The notes beneath the pieces are model-generated. The model worked only from the letters and a program-made list of their open reading frames with translations. It did no database searches and was not told the origin of the DNA. DNA of 64,000 bases from Amphiura filiformis (Eukaryota; Echinodermata; Ophiuroidea; Amphilepidida; Amphiuridae): positions 186,001 through 250,000 of the forward strand of contig NW_027305509.1 in the NCBI RefSeq assembly GCF_039555335.1, given 5' to 3'. The first letter of the stretch is position 1. Every line of letters begins with the position of its first letter. This document shows, piece after piece, positions 20,140 to 38,290 of this stretch. Made by a program: the position numbers and the translations under genes.

Positions 20140-20352
20140 TTAGTGGGCCTGCTCTTGTGATTTGTTCTTCGGCTTTGGTTTTGGTCGTGGTCCTTTCTTC
20201 TTTCTTTGGTTGATTTTCAATGAGTCCTTGGTGTCCTGGGCCCATGCCTGTCGTTGGTTGATTTGCAATGTATCCATGGTGCTCTTGGCCCATGCTTTTC
20301 GCTCCAAATACACGTAATTCTCATTGTGGAAATCGCCCATTCTGACATACCC
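20140..20352 (-). CDS. Receptor kinase exon 15 (C-tail and stop)
   Basis: Acceptor TTTTTCTTAATGCACAG. Encodes [20 protein letters not shown], then two related segments ([15 protein letters not shown] and [15 protein letters not shown], an internal 19-20-residue repeat) and a basic, proline-rich end [20 protein letters not shown] with TAA at 20140-20142. YVRM fits the YxxM consensus bound by the SH2 domains of PI3-kinase p85. Confidence 0.88.
   Translation of the reverse strand, partial: GYVRMGDFHNENYVYLERKAWAKSTMDTLQINQRQAWAQDTKDSLKINQRKKKGPRPKPKPKNKSQEQAH

Positions 20353-38290: not shown

Follow-up and report, generated by a model that had tools for sequence, protein, structure and literature searches.

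A brittle-star gene predicted to encode a receptor tyrosine kinase with two extracellular Calx-beta modules

The window analysed here, the whole stretch of 64,000 nucleotides of Amphiura filiformis DNA, carries on its minus strand a gene of 15 exons (38290-20140) with matching frames and splice sites, which yields a product of 720 residues. When exon 2 is taken to begin at 33205 and exon 7 at 27802, the joined product agrees at every residue with the 720 amino acids of P0001, an A. filiformis protein with the database label "uncharacterized protein", isoform X2. According to the genome paper (PMC11310086), the annotation of the published A. filiformis genome project used transcriptomes of 18 samples. 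The earlier note on this DNA had proposed 15 exons joining in frame, which is borne out by the match with P0001 throughout; its product was given as 721 residues long instead of 720, and its positions for K415, E430, HRD 510-512, N517 and DFG 530-532 are each one too high. The exons are listed below, with the basis of each assignment in brackets.

38218..38290, minus strand: exon 1, start codon and hydrophobic signal-like segment (translation)
33089..33205, minus strand: exon 2, first half of Calx-beta module 1, with the acceptor that gives the P0001 sequence (Pfam)
31980..32204, minus strand: exon 3, second half of Calx-beta module 1 (Pfam, profile)
30868..30972, minus strand: exon 4, first half of Calx-beta module 2 (Pfam)
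30057..30299, minus strand: exon 5, second half of Calx-beta module 2 (Pfam, profile)
28557..28643, minus strand: exon 6, Thr-rich stalk with 2 Cys (translation)
27585..27802, minus strand: exon 7, membrane span and juxtamembrane region, ahead of the GC-AG intron (translation)
26966..27149, minus strand: exon 8, glycine loop and catalytic Lys K414 (alignment)
25744..25848, minus strand: exon 9, helix C with E429 (alignment)
25151..25311, minus strand: exon 10, hinge and start of the C-lobe (translation)
24352..24474, minus strand: exon 11, HRD 509-511, N516, DFG 529-531 and activation loop with Y542 (alignment)
23553..23664, minus strand: exon 12, kinase APE region (translation)
21956..22052, minus strand: exon 13, kinase C-lobe (translation)
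21189..21288, minus strand: exon 14, end of the kinase C-lobe (translation)
20140..20352, minus strand: exon 15, C-terminal tail carrying Y663 and Y665, and the stop codon (translation)

Thirteen of the 14 introns have GT-AG borders and intron 7 has GC-AG borders. Introns 1-6, which lie between the extracellular exons, are in phase 1 throughout, and phase 1 introns are usual for shuffled modules. The product starts with a hydrophobic segment, followed by two tandem Calx-beta modules and a stalk; a single membrane span separates these from a complete tyrosine kinase. The domains that the earlier note had read from the sequence are all confirmed. Two hydropathy peaks were found in P0001, one at the start and one at residues 290-322, and together with the Pfam matches they give the layout of a receptor with a putative signal segment (called from hydropathy), extracellular modules and a single span. 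A six-frame search with a Calx-beta profile and the kinase sequence gave matches confined to the 15-exon gene and three pieces of intron 11, which are decayed repeats of the exon 11 end. No third Calx-beta module was found in the 5-kb intron 1 by the profile in six frames; the profile picked up exon 3 and exon 5, each in its open frame, and nothing else. Since the half-module exons 2 and 4 were missed by the Calx-beta profile, another short exon could have escaped. Two stretches of intron 1 (34747-34778 and 37372-37403) have one AT-rich palindromic unit of 14 bases in common, and these units are perhaps the ends of a small inverted-repeat element.

Elsewhere in the window, large tandem arrays with a 51-base unit occupy 47342-50759 in three blocks of 24.8, 26.1 and 7.7 copies, which leads to long chance open frames on both strands. 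A tRNA-like Rfam match at 59001-59062 (31.4 bits against a gathering threshold of 29; no ARAGORN call with bacterial settings) is perhaps a tRNA-derived repeat. Three open frames (5764-6222, 17796-18200 and 42326-42826) resemble pieces of retroelement reverse transcriptases by eye; none of the three gave a Pfam match at E 0.01.

The Calx-beta family of Pfam (PF03160) matches P0001 at 5.6e-25 with two stretches taken together. Scanned singly, the two modules score 2e-13 (50.8 bits) and 2.8e-14 (53.6 bits), both above the curated cut-off of 27, and a search for PF03160 and PF07714, which the earlier note had proposed as a check, finds both families. Among solved structures, the ectodomain is matched best by the regulatory CBD1-CBD2 pairs of the sodium-calcium exchangers NCX1 and CALX, and one CBD1-CBD2 alignment crosses the boundary between the P0001 modules. 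The calcium ligands of NCX1 CBD1 are named in PMC3386913; eight of the nine side-chain positions are identical in each of the two P0001 modules. The same count gives 8 and 8 for the two modules of the Amphiura paralogue P0002, 6 for the single module of P0137, 9, 7, 6 and 9 for modules 1-4 of P0140 and 9, 5, 5 and 9 for modules 1-4 of P0142. Twelve modules from six unrelated proteins, one from an actinomycete and some of them metagenomic, keep 6-9 of the nine positions, and the ligand positions are therefore a trait of the Calx-beta fold and not of this receptor. A structure model built from 12 sequences (mean pLDDT 58, pTM 0.41) is too weak for the ectodomain, and the 50 fold matches listed for it, of at least 2000, are all kinases.

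The kinase domain (PF07714, 7.4e-89) covers residues 379-641 and matches positions 1-258 of the 258 in the Pfam model. The alignment shows the catalytic residues K414, E429, HRD 509-511, N516 and DFG 529-531 in place. The activation-loop tyrosine Y542 and the tail tyrosines Y663 and Y665 do not vary among the 12 aligned receptors, which is consistent with an active kinase whose tail serves for docking. The solved structures nearest to the kinase are mostly FGFR1-3 among the best 60 of 2629 chains, in agreement with the general FGFR/Tie-like resemblance that the earlier note had seen in the kinase without placing it; the highest-ranking of these 60 chains carries the label EGFR, and the match to it is split into two stretches.

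Intron 11 contains, at 23711-24335, repeats of the activation-loop end of exon 11 together with the donor site (source 24352-24416). There are five copies of this exon end, 79-97% alike, and a shorter sixth match (83%). These copies are a minisatellite born from the kinase exon, with most of the frames broken. A role as alternative exons was dropped because of the mostly broken frames and because the sole other intact GTAAGT is at 23708.

The same architecture was found in further echinoderm proteins. P0002 is 47% identical to P0001 (311 of 659 aligned columns) and consists of two Calx-beta modules, an EGF-like module (21.1 bits, just below the Pfam cut-off of 21.5), a membrane span and a kinase; the genes for P0001 and P0002 presumably lie on the same contig, both being listed with a contig of 889,999 bases. 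In the sea stars, P0140 from Acanthaster planci ("uncharacterized") and P0142 from Patiria miniata (database name ephrin type-A receptor 1-like) combine four Calx-beta modules with a membrane span and a kinase, where the count of four comes from our own Calx-beta profile and Pfam reports three stretches. Both also have an N-terminal EGF-like stretch read by eye, for which Pfam makes no call at E 0.01. P0137, another Amphiura receptor, carries EGF modules and one divergent Calx-beta module, which scores 1.5e-11 with our profile and 17.2 bits against the Pfam cut-off of 27. Modules 1-2 and the kinase of P0001 form one collinear alignment with modules 3-4 and the kinase of P0140 (residues 31-666), which argues for a common past.

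Among the 120 of 5050 matches listed, five of the 44 echinoderm rows contain Calx-beta by profile, four of them above the Pfam cut-off; all five are from brittle stars or sea stars, and Calx-beta is absent from all 13 sea-urchin, sea-cucumber and crinoid rows. Amphiura and Acanthaster both belong to the Asterozoa. A sequence search with the ectodomain returned P0001 and eight other proteins, and none of these eight has a kinase domain; the search missed P0002, so absence from such searches is weak evidence. A further protein with a kinase and Calx-beta, P0110, was set aside: it has a Ser/Thr-type kinase (PF00069 3.1e-33, PF07714 1.7e-18), which precedes the Calx-beta part. This is the reverse domain order, and P0110 looks like a bacterial protein.

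Trees of the kinase domain were calculated with 64, 38 and 30 rows that we chose from 245 collected proteins. After the 64-row tree, rows with long branches were dropped (among them P0013, P0134, P0213, P0219 and the crinoid rows P0223 and P0242) and others were thinned out, including the sea-star WSC receptors P0210, P0217 and P0227. P0001 and P0002 pair with a support of 99/97 or better, and this pair joins P0133 and P0150 (100/99), which are its nearest kin by kinase. P0133 and P0150 are Amphiura receptor tyrosine kinases encoded outside the window and contain Reeler domains, with scores of 23.8 and 33.3 bits (cut-off 21). The kinase of P0001 lies within an echinoderm group that adjoins the echinoderm FGFRs, with a support of 90/95 in the 64-row tree and 98/94 in the 38-row and 30-row trees. 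The 64-row tree places six echinoderm rows outside this group (P0210, P0217, P0219 and P0227 from sea stars, P0223 and P0242 from crinoids), which speaks against a wholly closed echinoderm group. The ectodomains found in the group are of the EGF, Reeler, Ig, WSC or Calx types, where Ig and WSC are the names that we take the listed Pfam accessions to stand for.

The sea-star Calx receptors P0140 and P0142 are placed elsewhere in the echinoderm kinase group. Forcing P0001, P0002, P0140 and P0142 into one clade costs 21.5 log-likelihood units with 38 rows (p 0.047) and 28.6 units with 30 rows (p 0.0016), and adding P0137 to the forced clade lowers the value to p 3e-52 (30 rows). A single origin of the Calx receptors as one clade is thus rejected by the kinase trees, and the picture is that of a larger radiation of echinoderm kinases to which the ectodomain seems to be attached in a labile way. 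If losses are allowed, a wider group of eight rows is not rejected (p 0.11, 30 rows), a group that was named after a tree had been seen. In a tree of the modules, the divergent module of P0137 falls together with module 2 of P0001 and module 2 of P0002 (100/97; long branch), and a pairing of P0001 modules 1-2 with P0140 modules 3-4 is absent from this tree. P0137 and P0138 are close kinase sisters, one with and one without a Calx-beta module. From these sequence comparisons, Calx-beta would either have been kept by some lineages and lost by many or have been recruited more than once. The lineage-specific receptor family suggested in the earlier note stands in so far as the architecture occurs only in brittle stars and sea stars among the 120 of 5050 matches listed, but the Calx receptors are not one kinase clade.

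Taken at the level of sequence, the gene probably encodes a functional type I receptor tyrosine kinase, in which a calcium-stiffened Calx-beta rod would serve binding or adhesion and drive an active kinase. Sea water would keep the Calx-beta modules permanently loaded with calcium, and the bound calcium would stiffen the module pair into a rod. This rod would bind a matrix, cell-surface or secreted ligand that gathers the receptors, the gathered kinases would phosphorylate Y542 in the activation loop and Y663/Y665 in the tail, and adaptors would then read the phosphorylated tyrosines. Calcium in sea water is nearly constant at about 10 mM. At this concentration the sites should always be filled, which favours a stiff rod over a switch, and a structural or adhesive role of the Calx-beta modules is likelier than that of a calcium switch. 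Several observations count against this reading: the ligand positions are kept equally well in unrelated proteins, modules 2 and 3 of the sea-star receptors keep only 5-7 of the nine, the structure model is weak, and the P0001 ectodomain has only one N-glycosylation motif.

Alternatively, the protein might be a growth-factor receptor whose Calx-beta modules act as passive spacers, with the ligand bound at another site, such as the stalk or a co-receptor. Such a receptor would agree with the free change of ectodomains among the related kinases (EGF, Reeler, Ig, WSC, Calx) and with the sister kinases P0137 and P0138, which differ in the Calx-beta module, but two or four modules are maintained in the brittle-star and sea-star receptors, and we consider passive spacers unlikely. 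Somewhat less likely still is an extracellular calcium sensor, in which calcium would shift the angle between the modules of a CBD12-like pair and thereby switch the kinase, by analogy with the exchanger, which calcium regulates from inside the cell. The ligand positions are conserved in both modules, and the CBD1 sites of NCX1 couple to the CBD2 interface according to PMC3386913; high-affinity sites would, however, stay filled at the calcium concentration of sea water, and in the alignment module 2 has a Lys at the position of R532 of the exchanger, where an Arg appears to be required according to the same text. That the gene model is a chimera with Calx-beta exons from another gene, or a decayed gene whose product is not made, is very improbable: the 5 kb between exons 1 and 2 and the one GC donor could be read in this way, but the exons keep matching frames and splice sites from end to end, each of introns 1-6 is in phase 1, there is no stop and no frameshift, and the chimeric model is rejected because the domain order recurs in P0002, P0140 (collinear over residues 31-666) and P0142.

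The probable receptor with a Calx-beta rod resembles several known systems in part. It shares with the FGFR family the kinase, for which the solved matches are mostly FGFR1-3 (best 60 of 2629) and the group is sister to the echinoderm FGFRs in the 38-row and 30-row trees. Unlike FGFRs, P0001 has no Ig domain (no Ig family in Pfam at E 1) and two Calx-beta modules instead, and its kinase lies outside the FGFR branch, which consists of P0220 and P0228 (100/100) and adjoins the echinoderm group. With NCX1 and CALX it has in common two tandem Calx-beta modules with a short join and eight of nine ligand positions per module, whereas the P0001 modules stand ahead of a membrane span and a kinase and those of the exchanger are intracellular and regulate a transporter, as described in PMC3386913. 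P0140 and P0142 share with P0001 the combination of Calx-beta modules, one membrane span and a tyrosine kinase; they differ in having four modules, the EGF-like N-terminal stretch and another kinase position in the echinoderm group. The kinase is also similar to that of arthropod Cad96Ca, and several echinoderm relatives bear the database name 'Cad96Ca-like', but there is no cadherin among the Pfam matches of P0001, and the arthropod Cad96Ca kinases lie outside the echinoderm and FGFR group in the best trees, although forcing them together with the echinoderm set is not clearly rejected (p 0.052).

To our knowledge, a Calx-beta ectodomain is absent from the human receptor tyrosine kinase families. 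In open-access full-text literature, judged by titles and the starts of abstracts and thus without most subscription journals, including some kinome surveys, no Calx-beta receptor tyrosine kinase was found, and the open-access literature on echinoderm kinases contained no obvious survey of this kinase group. The shuffling of ectodomains in receptor kinases is already known, as stated in PMC8662651. A more speculative reading is that in the Asterozoa one FGFR-related kinase lineage swaps its ectodomain like a cassette. Brittle stars and sea stars may then have acquired Calx-beta rods repeatedly, by recruitment or by transfer between paralogues, and the outcome would be adhesion receptor kinases rigidified by calcium, a class that is not known to occur in other animals. 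Calx-beta would be an added ectodomain type for receptor tyrosine kinases, and an adhesion and calcium-binding fold would be tied to tyrosine-kinase signalling in animals that are studied for arm regeneration. The group may also offer a tractable case of receptor kinases that swap their outer half while the kinase and the tyrosines of the activation loop and tail stay.
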